Below are positions 6,082 to 23,247 of a stretch of 46,493 nt of DNA, in pieces (positions within the stretch are counted from its first letter, which is position 1; each line of letters begins with the position of its first letter). Origin of the DNA: a virus. A model generated the notes under the pieces. That model ran no database searches, was not told where the DNA came from, and saw only the letters and a program-made list of their open reading frames with translations. The stretch spans positions 1 to 46,493 of the IMG/VR virus record IMGVR_UViG_3300022707_002337; one strand, given 5' to 3'. The translations under genes were made by a program, and so were the position numbers.

Positions 6082-6315
6082 CTAAAATTTATCCGGTCGT
6101 AAGTCTTTCGCTTTAAAGAATTTACCCAATGTTTCATGTTTTTCAACCATCCTTGCGCCGGCAGGGCTGATTTGTTTTCGCACTTCCCAACCGTGTACTT
6201 TCGAATATTCGAGGTCGAGCATTTTAGATAAGTGATTGATTCCACCTGCTTTTTCTATCAGCAAAGTTAATTGTTCCAACTTTGCTAGGTTTAATTCTTC
6301 TAACAATAATTTCAT
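6082..6315 (-). CDS. YdaS/Cro-like transcriptional regulator
   Basis: 77 aa helix-turn-helix protein. Residues about 16-55 show the Cro/YdaS pattern: LIEKAGGINHLSKMLDL, then YSKVHGWEVRKQISPAGA, ending in the characteristic LRPD near the C-terminus. Start ATG 6315 follows GGGAG at a spacing of 9. It is the first gene of the leftward arm and diverges from the rightward early genes across a 235-base region holding repeated operator-like motifs. It probably binds there and sets the balance between the two arms. YdaS proteins are called antitoxins in some annotations, but no toxin partner is visible here. Confidence 0.75.
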   Translation of the reverse strand: MKLLLEELNLAKLEQLTLLIEKAGGINHLSKMLDLEYSKVHGWEVRKQISPAGARMVEKHETLGKFFKAKDLRPDKF

Positions 6316-6380
6316 TTCTTACAACTCCCATATGTGAGCTATTAAATATAGTTAGTTTTATAGTATAAAGCAAGTCATAA

Positions 6381-6464
6381 ATAAAGTTAGAATTTAATTT
6401 ACTATTTAATTCGAATATTATTTATAATATAGTTAAAATTTAATTCGAATAAAGTTAGAATTTA
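6381..6464. promoter_or_regulatory. iterated operator-like motifs in the divergent control region
   Basis: Three copies of AGTTA(G/A)AATTTA lie at 6385-6396, 6431-6442 and 6453-6464. Two copies of TTTAATTCGAATA, with an ATTCGAAT palindromic core, lie at 6405-6417 and 6439-6451. The longer 16-mer ATAAAGTTAGAATTTA is exact at 6381-6396 and 6449-6464. They sit between the leftward regulator gene and the first rightward gene, the expected place for Cro/CI-type operators. No strong consensus sigma70 promoter was identified; TATACT at 6488-6493 is a possible rightward -10. Confidence 0.6.
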
Positions 6465-6550
6465 CTATACTTTTCCATTTCTGGGGGTATACTTAACTTC
6501 ATGGTAATCGCCATATGCAAATTAATTTTATAAAAACGAGGACAAAAACA

Positions 6551-8203: not shown

Positions 8204-9422
8204 ATACAGCAGATATGAAGATCTTAAAGCCAGTTACCAAGTGCTTAAACAATGCTACGACAGTTTACAAATTAAATTTGATGAATCTAAAGATGATCTC
8301 CATGAGATACACAAATCTCATGACGCACTCATTGTTAGGCGTCATAATCTCGTATTTAACTATGAAGAACTTAAAAAAGATTATCGAACCCTTGTTAGCG
8401 CGCATGCCAAATTATGCAATGAATCCGAAGTACGAATTCATTGCGACCAGGACGATGATGCTAAAAAAGCTGAAGATGCGCACGATTTGATTAAAGTTAA
8501 TTACGGTAATCTTAAAAAAGAACATGAAGAACTTAAAAAAGATTATCAAGACCTTGAAAAGGATCATGACAAATTGTGCCATGAATGCGAAGTACGAATT
8601 CATTGCGACCAGGATGATGCTGCTAAAAAAGCTCATGAGCTTGGTAAAATTAAGTACGCGCACGATTTGATTAAAGTTAATTACGAAGACCTTAAAAAAG
8701 AACATGAAGAGCTTAAGAACGAACGCAACATACTAATATGCTGTAGCAATGACAAAAGAGCTGAGCTTGATGAAATACATAGCTTATATAATTCGCTCAC
8801 TGTCAGTCATGATAATCTTAAAAAAGAACATGCAGAACTTGAAAAAGTCTATGCAAGACTCAAAAATGAATGCGATAATATACGCATTCATTCTCAAAAA
8901 AAGATCGACGAATTTAAAAACGCACATCGAAATCTTGAAAATGACCGCTATATGTGGAACGAAAGATATAAGGATCTTGATATTTTATACATCGAGTTGC
9001 GCACCGAAAAAAATATCTTAGTGGAAGAATGCGAGTTTGAAAAAACTCGCCGCGAGCTGCTAAAAGACGAATACAAAAAGATTGTAGATGATTGTGAAAA
9101 TAGAATTCAATGTTGGATTGAAGAGGTTGATGAACTTAAATCGCATAAAGAAAATTATATAAAAGGCGTCAAGAAATCGCGTCACTTTAAATATGATACG
9201 CTTAGATTTAAATACGATAAACTTAAGTTAATAAACGAAACATTGCATCATAATTTATGCACAGCCGATCAATGTATACGTGGATGTAAAAGTGCGCACG
9301 ACGCGCTATTTTTAAGTAAAGAACAGGTGCTAGCGGCTCTCGTGTATATGGAATCTGTTAATAAGTCATTAATAGAAACCAACAATAGACTGTACAAAGA
9401 GGAAAGCAACAATGAAGCTTAA
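8196..9422 (+). CDS. long coiled-coil protein with internal repeats, 408 aa
   Basis: ATG 8196 is chosen because it overlaps the previous stop and follows an AGGG stretch; the upstream extension to 8109 reads the previous gene out of frame. Almost the whole length is predicted coiled coil, with heptads such as LKKEHEELKKDYQDLEK. A segment with SEVRIHCDQDD and AHDLIKVNY occurs twice (about residues 72-114 and 126-174) owing to DNA duplication, and a degraded third copy of the EC..IRIHS motif appears near residue 228. It resembles SMC-like rods or filament proteins only in composition; no ATPase head is present. Likely a structural or scaffolding role during infection. Confidence 0.75.
   Translation: MTKYSRYEDLKASYQVLKQCYDSLQIKFDESKDDLHEIHKSHDALIVRRHNLVFNYEELKKDYRTLVSAHAKLCNESEVRIHCDQDDDAKKAEDAHDLIKVNYGNLKKEHEELKKDYQDLEKDHDKLCHECEVRIHCDQDDAAKKAHELGKIKYAHDLIKVNYEDLKKEHEELKNERNILICCSNDKRAELDEIHSLYNSLTVSHDNLKKEHAELEKVYARLKNECDNIRIHSQKKIDEFKNAHRNLENDRYMWNERYKDLDILYIELRTEKNILVEECEFEKTRRELLKDEYKKIVDDCENRIQCWIEEVDELKSHKENYIKGVKKSRHFKYDTLRFKYDKLKLINETLHHNLCTADQCIRGCKSAHDALFLSKEQVLAALVYMESVNKSLIETNNRLYKEESNNEA
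8409..8716 (+). repeat. internal direct duplication in the coiled-coil gene
   Basis: 8409-8537 is repeated at 8571-8716, about 162 bases on. The second copy carries an 18-base in-frame insertion. Long exact stretches, including the segment encoding EVRIHCDQDD, show the duplication is recent. Both copies keep the reading frame. Confidence 0.85.
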
Positions 9423-9815: not shown

Positions 9816-10148
9816 ATGTTCGGCCTGATGTTCGAAAAGAATTGTAAAGCCTCGCATAGAAGGTTTGACAAAATGTATGTAGCTCTCGCAGATAAAACAG
9901 ATGATTTAGAAAAGTTAGAAAGCCTTATCGGTGCATACAAATTCAAAGGAGAAGCTCTCGCTACTAAAAACAGACGCTTGGAAAACTCATTAAAATGTTT
10001 GAAACTAATAAATGAAGATCTGATAGCAGCTTACACACTGTTACTAAGAGAAAATGAAAATTTAAAATATATAAACAATGAAAGACAAATGGAAGAATTG
10101 AGACTCAAACGCTCGCTCATAGAGGGTATAAAACCATGTTCGGATTAA
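9816..10148 (+). CDS. MFGLMF-family coiled-coil protein 1, 110 aa
   Basis: First of four consecutive genes whose products begin MFGLMF(E/K)K followed by a Cys. TTGGAG lies before ATG 9816. The N-terminal MFGLMFEKNC is a short hydrophobic/amphipathic leader. The remaining residues form a coiled coil with charged heptads (LENSLKCLKLINEDLIAAY). This copy is the longest and most diverged. No known family is recognised; the leader could be a membrane or partner anchor. Confidence 0.65.
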   Translation: MFGLMFEKNCKASHRRFDKMYVALADKTDDLEKLESLIGAYKFKGEALATKNRRLENSLKCLKLINEDLIAAYTLLLRENENLKYINNERQMEELRLKRSLIEGIKPCSD

Positions 10149-10351
10149 TGTTTAAAAAAGATTGCGATTGTCCGCAATTAAAACGGTCGTATCATACGCT
10201 TTGTGTAGATCTAAAAACTATAAGATATGTGAGAGACGAGTTTAAAAAGAAGAACGAAAATTTGATAAGAGAAAATCAAAAATTATTAAAAGAAAACAAT
10301 GATTTAAAATTTTATCAATCACCTGGTTCGTTTTTAAAGGATACAACCTGA
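10136..10351 (+). CDS. MFGLMF-family coiled-coil protein 2, 71 aa
   Basis: Begins MFGLMFKKDCDCPQLKRS, with AGAGGGT before ATG 10136, which overlaps the previous gene by 13 bases. The CDC motif (residues 10-12) could bind metal or form a disulphide. The following 50 residues are helical and charged. It is nearly the same as the next gene over its first 44 bases and highly similar along its length, showing recent tandem duplication. Confidence 0.7.
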   Translation: MFGLMFKKDCDCPQLKRSYHTLCVDLKTIRYVRDEFKKKNENLIRENQKLLKENNDLKFYQSPGSFLKDTT

Positions 10352-10566
10352 TGTTCGGATTAATGTTTAAAAAAGATTGCGATTGTCCGCAATTGGAACG
10401 GTCGTGTCATACACTTTGTGTGCATCTAAAGATCATTAGATATGTGGGAGATGAGTTTAAAAAGGCGAATGATATTTTAATAATTGAAAATCAAAAGTTA
10501 ATAAAAGAAAACAATGATTTAAAAATTCATCAACACCCCGCAATATTTCTAAGGGACGTAAACTAA
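10351..10566 (+). CDS. MFGLMF-family coiled-coil protein 3, 71 aa
   Basis: Tandem copy of the previous gene, with identical length and an identical first 17 codons except late substitutions. AAAGGA precedes ATG 10351, which overlaps the upstream stop by one base. The body differs by scattered conservative changes and ends with a short variable tail (HPAIFLRDVN). Selection has kept the leader, the CDC motif and a central KENNDLK motif. Confidence 0.7.
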   Translation: MFGLMFKKDCDCPQLERSCHTLCVHLKIIRYVGDEFKKANDILIIENQKLIKENNDLKIHQHPAIFLRDVN

Positions 10567-10817
10567 TGTTCGGATTAATGTTTAAAAAAAATTGCGATTG
10601 TGACGGCGCGCATTTAGAATATACTGAACTTCTTGCTGAGTACAATCATGTTGAACACTTAAGAAGTTCGCTGGCTAGGCAACTTGTCCGTTACGAAAAA
10701 AATATAAATAAGTTGCTAAGATCTATTAAAGATTCGAAGCGAGATATTAAAGAATTAGACCAAAACGCACATGAAGAAATTAATCGTTTGAAACAAGAAA
10801 TTAAAGGTATGCGATAA
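10566..10817 (+). CDS. MFGLMF-family coiled-coil protein 4, 83 aa
   Basis: Shares the leader MFGLMFKKNCDC with its neighbours, but the remainder is a different coiled coil (KNINKLLRSIKDSKRDIKEL), so the leader is joined to a new body. AAGGGA precedes ATG 10566. The stop overlaps the start of the DUF2800 nuclease gene (TAATG), placing the family in one operon with replication genes. Confidence 0.7.
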   Translation: MFGLMFKKNCDCDGAHLEYTELLAEYNHVEHLRSSLARQLVRYEKNINKLLRSIKDSKRDIKELDQNAHEEINRLKQEIKGMR

Positions 10818-17606: not shown

Positions 17607-19066
17607 AATGGATACCTCGCGACTATCAAAAAACGGCAATCAAATACCTATTGAAAAACCCACAGTCAGGTTTGTTTTTAGACCCGGGGTTAGGTAAAAC
17701 ATCGATCACTCTTGCTACAATAAAAATATTAAAATCAAAATCTAAAATCAAAAGGGTCTTATTAATCGCTCCGCTCCGTGTTATTTATTCGGTTTGGCCA
17801 GGTGAGATAAAAAAATGGTCAAACTTTAATGATATTTCATACGTCATTTTGCATAAAAAGGGTAAACAATCTTTGCGTGCTTCTCAGAAAGATTTGTATT
17901 TAATAAACCCAGAAGGGCTAGCGTGGCTGCATACAAAACTGCTATTTGATTTAAAGCATGGTGATTCGTTTCCATTCGACACATTATGGATCGATGAAAG
18001 TACTAGATTTAAAAACGCTCTGTCGAGTCGCTTTGGACTAATCTCTGACATGCTACCTCTTTTTAAACGTAAACACATCATGACCGGTACGCCCGCGCCA
18101 AAGGGGCTAATGGGTCTTTGGTCGCAATGCTACTTGTTAGATTCTGGTAAAACGTTCGGTAAAAACTTTTACAGTTTCAGAAGCGAATATTTTCAGGCGA
18201 ATGATTGGAATAAACATAACTGGCAATTAAAAGATTTTTCAGACGAATTAATCCATCGCAAAATCAGCCCCTTGGTTTTGGAAATGTCAGCTGAAAATTA
18301 TTTGGATATGCCGCCCTTACAATACAATTATATTGAAGTCGAGTTGTCAAAAAACGAAATGAAACTGTATAAAAAAATGGAGAGAGTAGCGTTTGCAAAA
18401 TTAGATGGAATGAAAACGTATAATGAAGAAAGCATAGCGCTTGACAACAAATCTGTGAGCGCTCAAGCCGCAGCTCAAGTTACACTTAAATGTCACCAGA
18501 TGGCCAACGGCCGCATTTACGAAGACATCCCAGAAGATCTAGACGACGATCGAATGAAAGCGTTTAAAAAGCAACGTAAACGTATAATAGTACACGATGC
18601 TAAAGAGCTCGCTTTGATCGATTTGGTTGACGAACTTAACGGTAAACCTCTACTAATAGCGTATCAATTTAGACACGATTTAGAAGCGATTAGAAATGTT
18701 CTCGGTAAAAACATAGCCCACATTGGGGCGGGGGTGAGCATAGAACGCGGGCTGTATCTGGAAAAACGTTGGAACGCTCGCGAACTTGCTATTTTGGCAG
18801 GTCATCCTGCTAGTATGGCCCATGGCCTCAACTTACAAGATGGCGGCAATGACATATGCTTTTATAGTGTAAATTGGAATCTGGACGAATACATGCAGTA
18901 TATAAGACGCATATACCGCAGCGGTGTGAACGGCTCTGTGCGAGTACATCATCTAATTGCTAAGGGCACTATAGATGAGGCTATTGTCAGCCGACTAGGT
19001 GAGCGCGCGGCTGAACAGTCAGATTTACGCGTTGCGATACGGCGCTATCGTTTAGATTTAGACTAA
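17603..19066 (+). CDS. SNF2/DEAD-like SF2 helicase
   Basis: 487 aa phage helicase. I use GTG 17603, which overlaps the nuclease stop and gives the usual MKWIPRDYQ start; TTG 17591 is an alternative. The Q-like DYQKTAI motif comes first, then Walker A DPGLGKT (27-33), LLIAPLRV (motif Ia), Walker B IDESTRFKN (131-138), TGTP motif III (161-164), and C-terminal Q-Y-RRIYRSG (motif VI-like) with SVNWNLDEYMQ. It probably remodels DNA or removes proteins during replication, with the adjacent VRR-NUC enzyme. Confidence 0.9.
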   Translation: MKWIPRDYQKTAIKYLLKNPQSGLFLDPGLGKTSITLATIKILKSKSKIKRVLLIAPLRVIYSVWPGEIKKWSNFNDISYVILHKKGKQSLRASQKDLYLINPEGLAWLHTKLLFDLKHGDSFPFDTLWIDESTRFKNALSSRFGLISDMLPLFKRKHIMTGTPAPKGLMGLWSQCYLLDSGKTFGKNFYSFRSEYFQANDWNKHNWQLKDFSDELIHRKISPLVLEMSAENYLDMPPLQYNYIEVELSKNEMKLYKKMERVAFAKLDGMKTYNEESIALDNKSVSAQAAAQVTLKCHQMANGRIYEDIPEDLDDDRMKAFKKQRKRIIVHDAKELALIDLVDELNGKPLLIAYQFRHDLEAIRNVLGKNIAHIGAGVSIERGLYLEKRWNARELAILAGHPASMAHGLNLQDGGNDICFYSVNWNLDEYMQYIRRIYRSGVNGSVRVHHLIAKGTIDEAIVSRLGERAAEQSDLRVAIRRYRLDLD

Positions 19067-19148
19067 TTTCAGTTTAGTTATTATTTCCATAAAATAATTC
19101 AAAAATAGACTTGACGGTGGCGCGCCACCTGCTATAATTACTTTAACA
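19065..19148 (+). repeat. 84-bp perfect direct repeat carrying a promoter (copy 1)
   Basis: 19065-19148 is identical to 19527-19610, an offset of 462 bases. Each copy contains an AT-rich upstream stretch, a sigma70-like promoter and a GC-rich palindrome. The copies flank one small gene, so homologous recombination between them could delete or duplicate it. Confidence 0.9.
19111..19138 (+). promoter_or_regulatory. promoter-operator copy 1
   Basis: The -35 TTGACG (19111-19116) and -10 TATAAT (19133-19138) are separated by 16 bases. A 14-base perfect palindrome GGTGGCGCGCCACC (19116-19129) lies between them, where a repressor would block RNA polymerase. The AT-rich stretch upstream resembles an UP element. 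Drives the gene at 19218. Confidence 0.85.
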
Positions 19149-19153
19149 TCAAG

Positions 19154-19195
19154 ACAAACACAAACACAAACACAAACACAAACACAAACACAAAC
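19154..19195 (+). repeat. hexamer microsatellite in a 5' leader
   Basis: Seven perfect copies of ACAAAC in the leader between promoter copy 1 and ATG 19218. The motif resumes just after the start codon. It would give a long, G-free, unstructured leader, and copy number could vary by slippage. Confidence 0.9.
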
Positions 19196-19217
19196 AAAAA
19201 CTTAAAGGGTGAACAAA

Positions 19218-19484
19218 ATGACAAACACAAACACAATCGGAACAACAAAAAGCTTCGAAATCATAAAATCAGAAACTACAGAAGTAATCAAAACAAAAAT
19301 CAGAGATAACAGATTCGGAGCGGCATTCGACGAATTAGAAGATTCGATTCGATATGGAAAAAAAGTTGAAAGAGTTTTCTACACTGAATCTGAAATGAAA
19401 GAATTACGAGAATTGATTATAGCAGCTAAAAAAGCTTACAATCCAGCTAACACCGGCGCTATAGTCCCAGCTGTTATATTATAA
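19218..19484 (+). CDS. accessory cassette gene 1, 88 aa
   Basis: ATG 19218 is preferred to GTG 19209 because AAAGGGTG precedes it and the same leader is used before other cassette genes. The N-terminus is Thr/Asn-rich (TNTNTIGTTK), from the hexamer repeat entering the coding sequence; the remainder is helical and charged (ESEMKELRELIIAAKKAY). No family recognised. Flanked by the two 84-bp repeats. Confidence 0.65.
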   Translation: MTNTNTIGTTKSFEIIKSETTEVIKTKIRDNRFGAAFDELEDSIRYGKKVERVFYTESEMKELRELIIAAKKAYNPANTGAIVPAVIL

Positions 19485-19491
19485 ACATCAA

Positions 19492-19521
19492 CACTCGCCA
19501 CCTCTTCGGAGGTGGCGAGTG
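19492..19521 (+). terminator. 13-bp UUCG hairpin
   Basis: CACTCGCCACCTC and GAGGTGGCGAGTG pair exactly around a TTCG tetraloop, a very stable RNA hairpin. It directly follows the cassette 1 gene and precedes the second promoter. No long T-run follows. The arms contain CGCCACC and GGTGGCG, the half-sites of the promoter palindrome, arranged outward. Confidence 0.8.
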
Positions 19522-19526
19522 GCAAC

Positions 19527-19610
19527 AATTTCAGTTTAGTTATTATTTCCATAAAATAATTCAAAAATAGACTTGACGGTGGCGCGCCACCTGCTATAAT
19601 TACTTTAACA
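19527..19610 (+). repeat. 84-bp perfect direct repeat carrying a promoter (copy 2)
   Basis: Exact copy of 19065-19148. It begins six bases after the UUCG hairpin, so hairpin plus promoter may form a movable or duplicable unit. Confidence 0.9.
19573..19600 (+). promoter_or_regulatory. promoter-operator copy 2
   Basis: TTGACG (19573-19578), 16-base spacer, TATAAT (19595-19600), with the 14-base palindrome at 19578-19591. Identical to copy 1. Drives the gene at 19648 through a short leader ending CTAAAGGGTGAACAAA. Confidence 0.85.
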
Positions 19611-19647
19611 ACAGCGAAACACTAACAAAAACTAAAGGGTGAACAAA

Positions 19648-19905
19648 ATGCAAATTACAGAAATTCAAATATTCAAATACGAAGATGAATTATGCAGCGC
19701 CAACATCATAATAGATGATTTATTTATGATACAACTTGGCAATGACGGTAAATTTTCCATACCCTTGCCAAATGATAGTTTTTGGATTGATGAAGACATC
19801 CAAGAACAAGCTTGCGCGGAATTCAACGTTGACGAAATTGTTGAAACATTAAACATACCAGCAGGCTCAGAACTAGAAGCCATGCCAATGGCCCACGTAA
19901 TTTAA
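19648..19905 (+). CDS. accessory cassette gene 2, 85 aa
   Basis: ATG 19648 follows AAAGGGTG, the cassette leader. The product is acidic with an N-terminal beta-like part (QITEIQIFKYEDELCSANII) and an Asp/Glu-rich C-terminal half (FWIDEDIQEQACAEF). No known domain. The whole gene with its promoter is a compact unit like its neighbours. Confidence 0.65.
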   Translation: MQITEIQIFKYEDELCSANIIIDDLFMIQLGNDGKFSIPLPNDSFWIDEDIQEQACAEFNVDEIVETLNIPAGSELEAMPMAHVI

Positions 19906-19923
19906 AAATAATTTAAAAAAGAC

Positions 19924-19951
19924 TTGACAGTGGCGCGCCACCTGTTACAAT
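19924..19951 (+). promoter_or_regulatory. promoter-operator copy 3
   Basis: TTGACA (19924-19929), 16-base spacer, TACAAT (19946-19951). The palindrome is GTGGCGCGCCAC (19930-19941), 12 bases, with the outer pair changed relative to copies 1 and 2. Preceded by an AT-rich tract; followed by a leader nearly identical to copy 4. Confidence 0.85.
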
Positions 19952-19998
19952 TGCTACGAGATCGACGAAACACTAACTAAATGCTAAAGGTGATCAAA

Positions 19999-20277
19999 AT
20001 GTACACATACAAAATAAAGGGACGAGTATCATATCCCGGTGATCAAGGAGATGGCTACGAGCTTATATCAATAGACATAAATGAAACTGTCGAAGTCGAA
20101 GAAATGGGCGCAGAAGAGGCATTTTGGACGTGGTTAGACAAAGACGAGCAAGAAGAATGCCAATTTTTTGGGCGTTTGACAACTTGCGATGCGAAGACAT
20201 ACGGAAAGAAAGGAGCTACACTCATAGATCAAAACGAAGAGCAGACGATTGACGTTGAGCTACAAACAGTTGACTAA
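19999..20277 (+). CDS. accessory cassette gene 3 (paralogue pair, first), 92 aa
   Basis: ATG 19999 follows AAAGGTG; the frame to 19981 has no ribosome site. Sequence opens MYTYKIKGRVSYPGDQGDG, a beta-like start, followed by an acidic stretch (NETVEVEEMGAEEAFW) and a conserved LTTCDAKTYGK. Clearly related to the next gene along the full length. Very acidic overall, which is common for phage DNA-mimic and inhibitor proteins, but no specific match is recognised. Confidence 0.7.
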   Translation: MYTYKIKGRVSYPGDQGDGYELISIDINETVEVEEMGAEEAFWTWLDKDEQEECQFFGRLTTCDAKTYGKKGATLIDQNEEQTIDVELQTVD

Positions 20278-20317
20278 CTACAACATCAAGACAAACATAA
20301 AACTAACTAAAACTAAA

Positions 20318-20587
20318 ATGGTGATCAAAACGTACACATACACAATCAGAGGGCAGGTGTCCTATAACGATGCAGAAAGCGGGTTTATAACGGTGGAGAT
20401 CGATCAACTTTTTGAGATAGATGAAATGTCAGCTGACGCGGCGAAGCAGAGATTTTTTGCAGAAAATGGGCAATGGGAATTTCAGGGCTTGCTGCAAACT
20501 TGCGATGCCGAAACGGGCGGTAAGTGCTGGGCGTCGTATCTGGATTTGGGCGAAGGACAAACACTTGATGTGAGGCTAGCTAACTAG
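20318..20587 (+). CDS. accessory cassette gene 4 (paralogue pair, second), 89 aa
   Basis: Duplicate of the upstream gene: YTYTIRGQVSY, EIDEMSADAA and LLQTCDAETGGK match it. The leader is also duplicated, but the ancestral ATG has become ACG (20330) and AAAGGTG has become AAATGGTG, creating ATG 20318 four codons upstream with no Shine-Dalgarno of its own. Initiation may therefore be weak or use ACG. No separate promoter copy lies before it, so it is co-transcribed. Confidence 0.6.
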   Translation: MVIKTYTYTIRGQVSYNDAESGFITVEIDQLFEIDEMSADAAKQRFFAENGQWEFQGLLQTCDAETGGKCWASYLDLGEGQTLDVRLAN

Positions 20588-20610
20588 CTAAAACTTAAAT
20601 GGTGAGCAAA

Positions 20611-20892
20611 ATGAATACAGTAACAATATTTAAAATGACAGACATACATGACGTAACTCTATCAGGTACTAGCAACTACTTACTTGAGCCATGGCCGCTC
20701 GCTGTAGAAGACGACGGCGGCAAACTGTATCAGCTACCAGAGGGGTATACGCTGGAGTCTAATGTGGACGGCCAGCCCACTATTTATGACAACTACGGCG
20801 AGCCTTGTAGTATATTTAATCACCCACCTACACACCGGCCGCAGCTTTCATCGTCATCTAACAAAATGCCGGTGCTGAAATTGGCCGCGTAA
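20611..20892 (+). CDS. accessory cassette gene 5, 93 aa
   Basis: ATG 20611 is preferred to ATG 20599 because GGTGAG lies before it as in the cassette leaders. The product has a conserved-looking core with Pro and Gly (LLEPWPLAVEDDGGKLYQL) and a Pro/His-rich C-terminal tail (NHPPTHRPQLSSSSNK). Composition of the tail differs from the acidic neighbours. No family recognised. Confidence 0.6.
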   Translation: MNTVTIFKMTDIHDVTLSGTSNYLLEPWPLAVEDDGGKLYQLPEGYTLESNVDGQPTIYDNYGEPCSIFNHPPTHRPQLSSSSNKMPVLKLAA

Positions 20893-20917
20893 TTTAAAAT
20901 AATTTAAAAAAAAAGAC

Positions 20918-20945
20918 TTGACAGTGGCGCGCCACCTGTTACAAT
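20918..20945 (+). promoter_or_regulatory. promoter-operator copy 4
   Basis: TTGACA (20918-20923), 16-base spacer, TACAAT (20940-20945), palindrome GTGGCGCGCCAC (20924-20935). The surrounding sequence from the AT-rich tract to the leader GAAACACTAAC is nearly identical to copy 3. Drives the gene at 20995. Confidence 0.85.
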
Positions 20946-20994
20946 TGCTACGAGATCGACGAAACACTAACAAAAACTTAAACGGGTAAACATC

Positions 20995-21390
20995 ATGAAT
21001 AATCAAATATCAAAAATAGCTAAACTAATACAATCGACAGATTTTGAATATTACGGACTACGACAAATACCATTTGATCAAAATCCAGCTATAGGAAGCG
21101 TGTTAGAGGCGTCGTGTCAATGGGTCAACGAAGAGCCTACAGATTACAAACTTGATGGTACAAGCGCTATGCATATCAACACTGATCTCGATCGTCTTGA
21201 GATGGGCATTGTAGAGTCTGCTAAAAAATTAGGATTTACCGCTTGTGAGATATTGGGTGTTGATACGCGCGGGATATTCCATTGTTATGAAGGTACTAGA
21301 TTAGCGCTTTGTGGTAGCGAGTTTGCGTCGTCACCTGACGACGACGGTGAAATGATATTATGTGATGCCATCGTTTTAGATGTTATGTAA
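20995..21390 (+). CDS. accessory cassette gene 6, 131 aa
   Basis: ATG 20995 follows ACGGGTAAACATC. Soluble, acidic, with three scattered cysteines and a C-terminal DDDGEMILCDAIVLDVM. The middle contains a beta-alpha-like stretch (ESAKKLGFTACEILGVD). No known family; length and a short start region (KIAKLIQSTDFEYYG) give no clear hint. Confidence 0.65.
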   Translation: MNNQISKIAKLIQSTDFEYYGLRQIPFDQNPAIGSVLEASCQWVNEEPTDYKLDGTSAMHINTDLDRLEMGIVESAKKLGFTACEILGVDTRGIFHCYEGTRLALCGSEFASSPDDDGEMILCDAIVLDVM

Positions 21391-21420: not shown

Positions 21421-21828
21421 ATGCGAGTAAAAAGATTGTTTGAAAGTTACGACTCACGTCAATACGGTATTCCCTGGGGTGCAAAAATCACATTTAATGG
21501 TACTGAGCCTGTGTATAATTTTATTGGCGAATTTTTAGGTGACCCTCGCACGGGGAGCGCTGGCATTGTTGCAATAGAAGCCGAGACAAACGATATAGTT
21601 GCGTTTGGTCAAAAAGATAACGACTGGGATAAGACAGCTCAATACTGGTATGTTGTCAGTAAGACAGGTACGCTACTAAAGACAACACATCAAGCCGCGT
21701 TAAATCGTCAAGTCGCAATGATTATTGACGCTCTCAAAAAATTACAAAAAGAACATGATATTTTGCATGACGATTATCGAAAATTAAACAAGGCTTATGT
21801 AACGTTAAAAAATGAACGGGATGAATAG
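21421..21828 (+). CDS. hypothetical protein with C-terminal coiled coil, 135 aa
   Basis: AAAGGGG precedes ATG 21421. Residues 1-85 look like a beta-rich domain (GAKITFNGTEPVYNFIGEF) and residues about 98-135 form a coiled coil (KKLQKEHDILHDDYRKLNKAY) of the same style as the 7647-10817 cluster. This joins the two unknown gene groups in style. Function unknown. Confidence 0.65.
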   Translation: MRVKRLFESYDSRQYGIPWGAKITFNGTEPVYNFIGEFLGDPRTGSAGIVAIEAETNDIVAFGQKDNDWDKTAQYWYVVSKTGTLLKTTHQAALNRQVAMIIDALKKLQKEHDILHDDYRKLNKAYVTLKNERDE

Positions 21829-21829
21829 C

Positions 21830-22147
21830 ATGAATACGTTAACTAACTTAAAAAGAGGCCAACTAGTAAAATTAGTTGGCTATGCTAAAGTAGTCGACTT
21901 AAGCGAAAACCCCGAAACGATGACACAACGCTGGTCAAGATTCGTTTGCAGAGAATGTTGGGCCTTGCAATCATTTGGTAAAACTAAAAGCGGTCAAAAA
22001 TATATGATATCAGCTGTATGCTATCAGAGAACGTCTAACATACGGGGCAAAGGTTACGACAATTCAAAAAAAATGAATGATTTAGAATGGACAATACATC
22101 ATTACGAGTATAAAGAGTTGCCCCATTACTATCGACTAACTAAATAA
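21830..22147 (+). CDS. hypothetical protein with CxxC, 105 aa
   Basis: Three in-frame ATGs lie close together (21812, 21821, 21830); 21830 best fits the ACGGGA ribosome site and lies just after the previous stop. Contains CRECW at about residues 38-42, a possible half zinc knuckle, and a basic centre (GKTKSGQKYM). An inverted repeat lies within the first codons and may affect translation. No known family. Confidence 0.6.
   Translation: MNTLTNLKRGQLVKLVGYAKVVDLSENPETMTQRWSRFVCRECWALQSFGKTKSGQKYMISAVCYQRTSNIRGKGYDNSKKMNDLEWTIHHYEYKELPHYYRLTK
21858..21880 (+). promoter_or_regulatory. inverted repeat in the start region of a gene
   Basis: GCCAACTA (21858-21865) and TAGTTGGC (21873-21880) pair exactly around a 7-base loop, 28 bases after ATG 21830. 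It could be a protein-binding operator or an RNA hairpin that slows early elongation. Confidence 0.5.
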
Positions 22148-22168
22148 ATTATGAAATAGGCACTTGAG

Positions 22169-22393
22169 ATGAACGATGAAAACAAAGAAGAGATTATGGA
22201 AGTCGATCCGAAATATAAACGATACAAAATCAATGCGATTGAAAACAAAGGCCCTGAAATACGAGGATTGCGTGTGCCGAAAGAATATCATGACGCAATT
22301 AAAAGTATAATCAGAAAATTATTTGCAGGAACCGTCACACCTAAACGCATTAACAGTGCGACCAATGCATTGATTATCGAATTATTAAAATAA
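22169..22393 (+). CDS. small hypothetical protein, 74 aa
   Basis: A weak AGG lies before ATG 22169. The centre (RGLRVPKEYHDAIKSII) has a short strand followed by a helix as in ribbon-helix-helix proteins, and the whole is basic, so DNA binding is possible. It lies immediately upstream of the XRE regulator. Family not recognised. Confidence 0.55.
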   Translation: MNDENKEEIMEVDPKYKRYKINAIENKGPEIRGLRVPKEYHDAIKSIIRKLFAGTVTPKRINSATNALIIELLK

Positions 22394-22408: not shown

Positions 22409-22783
22409 ATGTTAAATAAGCCAGTTGAAGAATTTGGAAAATCTTTAATAAAAGCCCGTAAAAAAGCAGGATTGACGCAACTAGTACTCGGCATTAGGTG
22501 TGGATTATCATCGAGTTATATAAGTTATTACGAAAACTCAGAACATTTTCCATCTTTAGAAAGTGCTATAAAAGTGGCTGAATTTTTAGAAATGACGGTA
22601 GGTGAAATGTTAGGAGAAGCCACCGTCAAATCAAAAATTGAAATAAAATACAATTGTTTATCGCATGATAATAGAGAATTAGTCATGTTATTTATAGAGA
22701 TGTTATCACACAGACTTAAACAAAAAATACCAATTAAAAGGACTCGAAAAACTAGGAGAACTAAAAATGATCGAACTACATAA
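22409..22783 (+). CDS. XRE-family helix-turn-helix regulator
   Basis: 124 aa. Residues about 8-65 form the classic XRE/HTH_3 domain: LIKARKKAGLTQLVLGIRCG, then SSSYISYYENSEHFPSLESA. The C-terminal part is helical with a strongly basic end (KRTRKTRRTKNDR). AAGG precedes ATG 22409. It is the last substantial gene of the rightward arm and a candidate binder of the palindromic operators at 19111-20945. No LexA/CI-type peptidase domain is present, so RecA-induced cleavage is not expected. Confidence 0.85.
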   Translation: MLNKPVEEFGKSLIKARKKAGLTQLVLGIRCGLSSSYISYYENSEHFPSLESAIKVAEFLEMTVGEMLGEATVKSKIEIKYNCLSHDNRELVMLFIEMLSHRLKQKIPIKRTRKTRRTKNDRTT

Positions 22784-22848: not shown

Positions 22849-23247
22849 TCATTTAGATTTAACTATTGCAGTGCCGACAATAGTTAAAATGATAGTACTT
22901 ACCGCTAATATTATTTGCCAAATGCGCGATGTTGAGAATGTATTTTTAGCAACTTTTGATTCTAAATATGGTATCTTTTCAGTCTGTATTATTAATAATT
23001 TGGCACTTGTTTCTGTAATCAAATCGAAAAGTTTCTCAATTTGATTATTAACATTTGTAAATTTTTCATCATTCAATTTTGTTTCAGATTGCATATAAGC
23101 CATGGCCAATTTACTTTGCGTTGTAGATTCGTTCAGCGCGGTTGCCATCATCTCAACTGTATCTGTCAGCTTTATCAAGCCAGCCTCAAGAGTTTTATTA
23201 CCCATAATAACTATCTCGTTGATTTCGCTACGCGTTAAATAATCCAT
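22849..23247 (-). CDS. C-terminally anchored coiled-coil protein, possible XhlA-like lysis factor
   Basis: 132 aa. Residues about 35-100 form a coiled coil; residues about 109-128 are one transmembrane helix (IWQIILAVSTIILTIVGTAI) followed by a lysine tail. This layout is shared with haemolysin XhlA-type proteins that work with holins. It is the last gene of the late arm, downstream of the amidase, so a lysis role is reasonable. ATG 23247 starts MDYLTRSEINEI; no typical multi-span holin is seen nearby. Confidence 0.55.
   Translation of the reverse strand: MDYLTRSEINEIVIMGNKTLEAGLIKLTDTVEMMATALNESTTQSKLAMAYMQSETKLNDEKFTNVNNQIEKLFDLITETSAKLLIIQTEKIPYLESKVAKNTFSTSRIWQIILAVSTIILTIVGTAIVKSK
22858..22888. 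terminator. 11-bp inverted repeat at the convergent junction
   Basis: TTTAACTATTG (22858-22868) and CAATAGTTAAA (22878-22888) pair exactly around 9 bases, inside the 3' end of the minus-strand gene. Its position where both arms converge, and its symmetry, suit a bidirectional terminator, though the stem is AT-rich and may be weak. Confidence 0.5.

Follow-up and report, generated by a model that had tools for sequence, protein, structure and literature searches.

In the Bacillus prophage SPbeta, several phage genes, most of them functionally uncharacterized, have in their promoter regions a repeated element named SPBRE (a 15-bp MEME motif), which is bound by one phage-encoded repressor, the tyrosine-recombinase-like protein MrpR, with ten ChAP-seq peaks across the prophage (PMC10516654). 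The PeSLs of T4-type phages (Arbiol 2010 and Comeau 2014, cited in PMC4503421) are repeated promoter/stem-loop cassettes that precede small orphan genes in a variable region and are likely substrates for recombination. The SAS/ESAS sequences of the cluster K mycobacteriophages (13-bp GGGATAGGAGCCC and 17-bp imperfect inverted repeats) are associated with translation starts at many small genes and are suspected to have a role in translation (PMC3203893). Multiple sites for one repressor, the early lytic promoters among them, are also found per genome in the mycobacteriophages with stoperators and operators of the L5 type (PMC9283540).

Here we describe four repeated promoter regions, hereafter called headers, that precede small genes in one block of a phage genome; the window analyzed is a whole IMG/VR virus record of 46.5 kb. 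The headers work like all four of the systems above, and they lack the features that define PeSLs, SAS/ESAS and stoperators. As with SPBRE, a single element recurs in the promoter regions of several genes, most of them without a known function. However, the peaks of SPBRE are distributed over the prophage and MrpR is its established binder, whereas the element described here is a GC-rich palindrome of 12-14 bp in the promoter spacer, present in four copies within one block, and its binder is a candidate only. The repeated promoters before small orphan genes, the variable region and the likely use as recombination substrates are shared with the PeSLs; unlike in the PeSLs, a stem-loop adjoins header 2 only, instead of accompanying the promoter at each copy, and the putative palindromic operator is inside the promoter. 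Likewise, the phage is not of the T4 type, its terminase being nearest to those of Shewanella phage SppYZU01 (54%) and Acinetobacter phage Scuro (50%), neither of which is T4-like. The SAS sequence, with 3 mismatches, gave 3 matches in the window against 2.8 expected, none of them in the headers. The stoperators differ in that the site is asymmetric, present in many copies and also acts to stop elongation. The L5 stoperator consensus is GGTGGMTGTCAAG, which with 3 mismatches gave 20 matches against 11.4 expected, none at the headers. The arrangement is thus of a known kind. Particular to this phage are the palindrome that fills the spacer and the duplication of the header in its entirety, and the palindrome-promoter sequence has no match anywhere else that was searched.

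Genomic setting of the block

The phage is contractile-tailed, with genes for a tail sheath, tape measure, baseplate, terminase, DNA polymerase, primase and SNF2-type helicase; no integrase or recombinase family was recognized among the proteins scanned, which are a subset of the ORFs. The rightward early genes end at the helicase (19066), the leftward lysis/tail genes begin near 22849, and the orphan block of 3.8 kb is placed between the SNF2-type helicase gene and these convergent genes (Table 1). In three related contigs (L005, L006 and L007) the block is absent from the junction and the end of the helicase gene either touches a leftward gene or extends into it, for which reason we regard it as an accessory insert. 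Repeated promoters of the header kind were not found in the related phages examined.

Table 1. Coordinates of the headers, promoters, genes and hairpin in the orphan block
Feature	Position	Strand	Description
Header 1	19065-19217	+	AT-rich stretch, P1, leader with tandem ACAAAC repeat, ribosome site
P1	-35 19111-19116, -10 19133-19138	+	14-bp palindrome 19116-19129
Gene 1	19218-19484	+	88 aa, orphan, pI 7.9
Hairpin	19492-19521		strong 13-bp stem, 4-base loop; terminator-like, scored on minus strand
Header 2	19527-19647	+	near-identical to header 1 (87-nt repeat, alignment)
P2	-35 19573-19578, -10 19595-19600	+	palindrome 19578-19591
Gene 2	19648-19905	+	85 aa, acidic orphan
Header 3	19903-19998	+	P3: -35 19924-19929, -10 19946-19951, palindrome 19930-19941
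Gene 3	19999-20277	+	92 aa, acidic orphan
Gene 4	20318-20587	+	89 aa, paralogue of gene 3 (45% identical); copied leader, no promoter
Gene 5	20611-20892	+	93 aa, orphan; leader/ribosome site related to headers
Header 4	20895-20994	+	near-identical to header 3
P4	-35 20918-20923, -10 20940-20945	+	palindrome 20924-20935
Gene 6	20995-21390	+	131 aa, phrog_18666 (unknown function)
Genes 7-9	21421-22393	+	unit 4; 135, 111 and 74 aa; no confident family
XRE gene	22409-22783	+	124 aa, last gene of unit 4; XRE-family helix-turn-helix protein, HTH_3 5.6e-09

Four promoters with an embedded palindrome

Four promoter-like sites of the form TTGAC(G/A)-GTGGCGCGCCACCTG(C/T)-TA(T/C)AAT, with a 16-bp spacer (GTGGCGCGCCACCTGC/T), are present exactly where the preliminary description had located them, at 19111, 19573, 19924 and 20918. 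All four have hexamers near TTGACA/TATAAT within the 16-18 bp spacing of sigma70-type promoters and score 11/12 against this consensus, each with an extended -10 TG, a score that is reached by about 8 sites in the whole window. The palindromes of 12-14 bases previously reported between the -35 and -10 boxes are perfect dyads, of 14 bp (GGTGGCGCGCCACC) in the first pair of sites (19111-19138 and 19573-19600, TTGACG/TATAAT) and of 12 bp (GTGGCGCGCCAC) in the second pair (19924-19951 and 20918-20945, TTGACA/TACAAT). A repeated perfect dyad in this position occurs at these four sites only. Furthermore, the window contains 4 copies of GGCGCGCC where 0.23 would be expected, a search for GGTGGCGCGCCACC that tolerated up to 3 mismatches found nothing but these four sites in the 46.5-kb record, and only one other of the 298 promoter-like sites that score at least 9/12 contains a 12-bp palindrome, which is pure A/T. 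The chance of a perfect palindrome of at least 12 bp in a random 18-base stretch of the same composition is 0.0026, and that of a GC-rich one is about 3e-5 per random spacer; the GC content of the phage is about 38%, with which the GC-rich palindrome contrasts.

Several other roles were considered for these elements and rejected. A hairpin terminator was ruled out, since the plus strand has no T tract and the minus-strand matches are weak. The dyad has no loop and no RNA polymerase family was seen among the proteins scanned, which argues against a hairpin promoter for a phage RNA polymerase, and GCGC and CGCG occur at the expected frequency in the phage, which speaks against a restriction-site or methylation signal. 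An RNA element in the leader was likewise dismissed, since the Rfam search returned no family and the leaders overall, leader 1 included, are predicted to be essentially unstructured. As a separate observation, a plus-strand site with a 12/12 sigma70 consensus (TTGACA-16-TATAAT) is located at 1771-1798 within leftward genes (1526-2295); it has no notable rightward gene downstream and may be an antisense promoter or a chance match.

Duplication of the headers

The repeat had been described as a promoter-operator, and a promoter with a palindrome is indeed part of it, but the repeated unit of about 100 bp also takes in an AT-rich stretch upstream, the leader, the ribosome site and the ATG. Headers 1 and 2 are 99% identical over 87 nt, headers 3 and 4 show no difference between the -35 region and a point well inside the leader, and the identity between the two pairs is about 80% over 98 nt. 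Judging from these alignments, the four sites are two near-identical pairs that descend as copies from one ancestral header. The fourfold recurrence of the architecture is thus real, but its independence is not; since the block grew by duplication, the palindrome does not represent four independent events, and the recurrence, being largely explained in this way, speaks less strongly for selection on the palindrome than had been assumed.

When the pairs are compared without gaps, 31/36 nt of the promoter core are kept, as opposed to 14/41 nt upstream and 4/10 of the first 10 nt downstream. Both promoter classes are therefore intact, the core having been retained while the flanks diverged. The 12 bases of the palindrome are unchanged between the pairs; the chance that 4 core changes all miss them is 0.18, so that the extra conservation of the palindrome over the rest of the 36-nt core is not significant.

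The tandem ACAAAC repeat of leader 1 (19149-19235) extends beyond the start codon into the reading frame of gene 1 (MTNTNT...), and the stem of the hairpin that follows this gene holds the palindrome half-site GGTGGCG/CGCCACC in inverted order. Tandem copies of small coding segments are also found at 8362-8859, 10128-10601 and 1539-1946 (72-97% identity), and duplication is therefore frequent in this phage genome.

Searches in other genomes

The preliminary description had proposed that the palindrome be sought between -35 and -10 boxes in related phages, but the layout was not found among 2.9 million viral contigs; the single looser match (L063), which falls within a gene in a GC-rich phage, is attributed to chance. 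A search for the promoter layout at fixed spacing in about 85,000 bacterial and archaeal species gave 54 matches, none of which has GTGGCGCGCCAC in a species set that may not include the host of the phage. These matches are mostly promoter-like sites in Clostridia, Chloroflexi and Selenomonas, with flanks that differ from those in the phage. In two Clostridia genomes (L043, 915, plus strand; L053, 4665, plus strand), 18-bp perfect palindromes centred on GGCGCGCC sit between consensus -35 and -10 boxes, and here too the flanks are unlike those of the phage. When the header DNA was compared with phages and plasmids, any matches were short and AT-rich, and the palindrome string returned two matches in open-access papers, both irrelevant. 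We favor a phage-encoded over a host-encoded binder because the palindrome-promoter is absent from the other viral contigs and from the bacterial matches.

Candidate regulators

The leading candidate for a binder of the palindrome is the XRE protein, to judge from the gene order and the helix-turn-helix match. Among solved structures it has two matches, one being the Csp231I C protein (1.4e-04), and the Csp231I controller protein is a known transcription regulator. The place of the XRE gene as the last gene of the fourth unit makes its product a reasonable candidate. From P4 to this gene, the genes overlap or are separated by short gaps (15-30 nt) throughout, and no plus-strand terminator was found between the two. 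The XRE gene itself has no palindrome directly in front of it, and the viral contigs yielded no relatives of the protein with which to compare the co-occurrence of the two.

A YdaS/Cro-like protein at 6082 (phrog_2856, 1e-05; Pfam YdaS, 3.5e-05) is a weaker and less likely candidate, since the repeats upstream of its own gene are AT-rich and unlike the palindrome. These are three AT-rich direct repeats (AATAAAGTTAGAATTTA) at 6316-6514, accompanied by ATTCGAAT motifs, and they are likely the gene's own operators. Other small phage proteins or a host protein could also be the binder.

A model for the four units and its alternatives

We hypothesize that each header would provide a near-consensus promoter of the host sigma70 type with a perfect palindromic operator in its 16-bp spacer, an unstructured leader and a ribosome site, and that the accessory block at the helicase-lysis/tail junction, with its small orphan genes, was built by duplication of the header and of genes. 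The palindrome would be bound by a dimeric regulator encoded by the phage, with the XRE protein as the most likely one, which would exclude RNA polymerase and thereby repress all four promoters. Expression of the four units would then begin jointly early in infection and cease jointly with the build-up of the regulator, and with the XRE gene at the end of the P4 unit this could form a negative-feedback loop on the four promoters. Repression would be the simplest action of a protein bound to the palindrome, because near-consensus promoters are expected to be active unaided and the palindrome lies under the polymerase. In its entirety, this model is in our view about evenly balanced between being right and being wrong. 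That the four units are under a shared switch is likely; a shared promoter-operator switch had been suggested before, and near-consensus promoters with an embedded palindrome keep it as the best reading, even if the recurrence that had pointed to it stems largely from duplication.

The same headers could also be bound by a host regulator, in which case the phage would have captured the operator and the orphan block would be tied to host physiology. The host sigma70 type of the promoters and a GC-rich palindrome in an AT-rich phage (about 38% GC) are consistent with such an origin, but the absence of GTGGCGCGCCAC from the 54 matches in about 85,000 species, at fixed spacing and with a host perhaps outside the set, makes it rather unlikely. 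Another thought is that there is no operator at all, the palindrome being incidental or tuning promoter melting and recurring solely through header duplication. Although the collapse of the four sites to two pairs with one ancestor, and the lack of significant conservation beyond the core (P = 0.18), could be explained in this manner, it is improbable that a spacer should exactly enclose a GC-rich palindrome of 12 bp (about 3e-5 per spacer), and the palindrome is still perfect in two diverged copies, so that we find this distinctly unlikely.

The palindrome might also be bound by an activator or a dual repressor/activator, such as the YdaS/Cro-like protein at 6082 that the phage encodes, but promoters so close to the consensus are expected to work without an activator. 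Activation of the MerR type uses a long spacer, which the 16-bp spacer is not, and the repeats upstream of 6082 are different and AT-rich; we consider activation very unlikely. It is highly improbable that the headers are chiefly recombination modules for the gain, loss and shuffling of small genes, in the manner of the T4 cassettes, with regulation being secondary. Long near-identical direct repeats do flank gene 1 and genes 3-5, the block is absent in relatives and a stem-loop precedes one header; however, this would leave the embedded palindrome unexplained, the stem-loop is present at only one of the four headers, and no second phage with shuffled cassettes was seen among those searched.

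The genes of the cassette

A tentative and somewhat doubtful extension of the repression model is that the header is portable and self-contained, and has been copied in front of newly gained orphan genes to place them in one early regulon with its regulator in the same block. If the repression model is correct, the phage would show how the copying of a complete regulated header can bring recently gained orphan genes under an existing regulon, and would supply a compact, testable pair of operator and regulator. The co-regulated orphan genes would then be sensible candidates for putative early host-directed functions.

The cassette proteins had been characterized as small acidic proteins of unknown family. 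None of them matched a named family in the family searches, in agreement with this, but the acidic character applies to genes 2-6 (pI 4.1-4.7) and not to gene 1 or the distal genes of unit 4 (pI 6.8-9.7). The structure models were poor (pLDDT 60 for gene 3 and 40 for gene 6), and the fold search with the gene 3 model gave weak matches alone, mostly to uncharacterised phage proteins. The role in host takeover or anti-defence that the preliminary description had suggested finds no support in these searches and models. No relatives of gene 6 or of genes 3/4 were found among the viral contigs. In the related phages examined, there were no relatives of the cassette proteins except for that of gene 6 in Mannheimia phage 3927AP2, which is encoded directly ahead of genes for an HTH_XRE protein and a Mor activator. 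Genes 4 and 5 are preceded by copies of the leader and ribosome site without a promoter. Gene 4 apparently starts at ATGGTGATCAAAACG (20318-20335) and has ACG at the codon that aligns with the first codon of gene 3, its paralogue; by this alignment, the start of gene 4 seems to have moved upstream.
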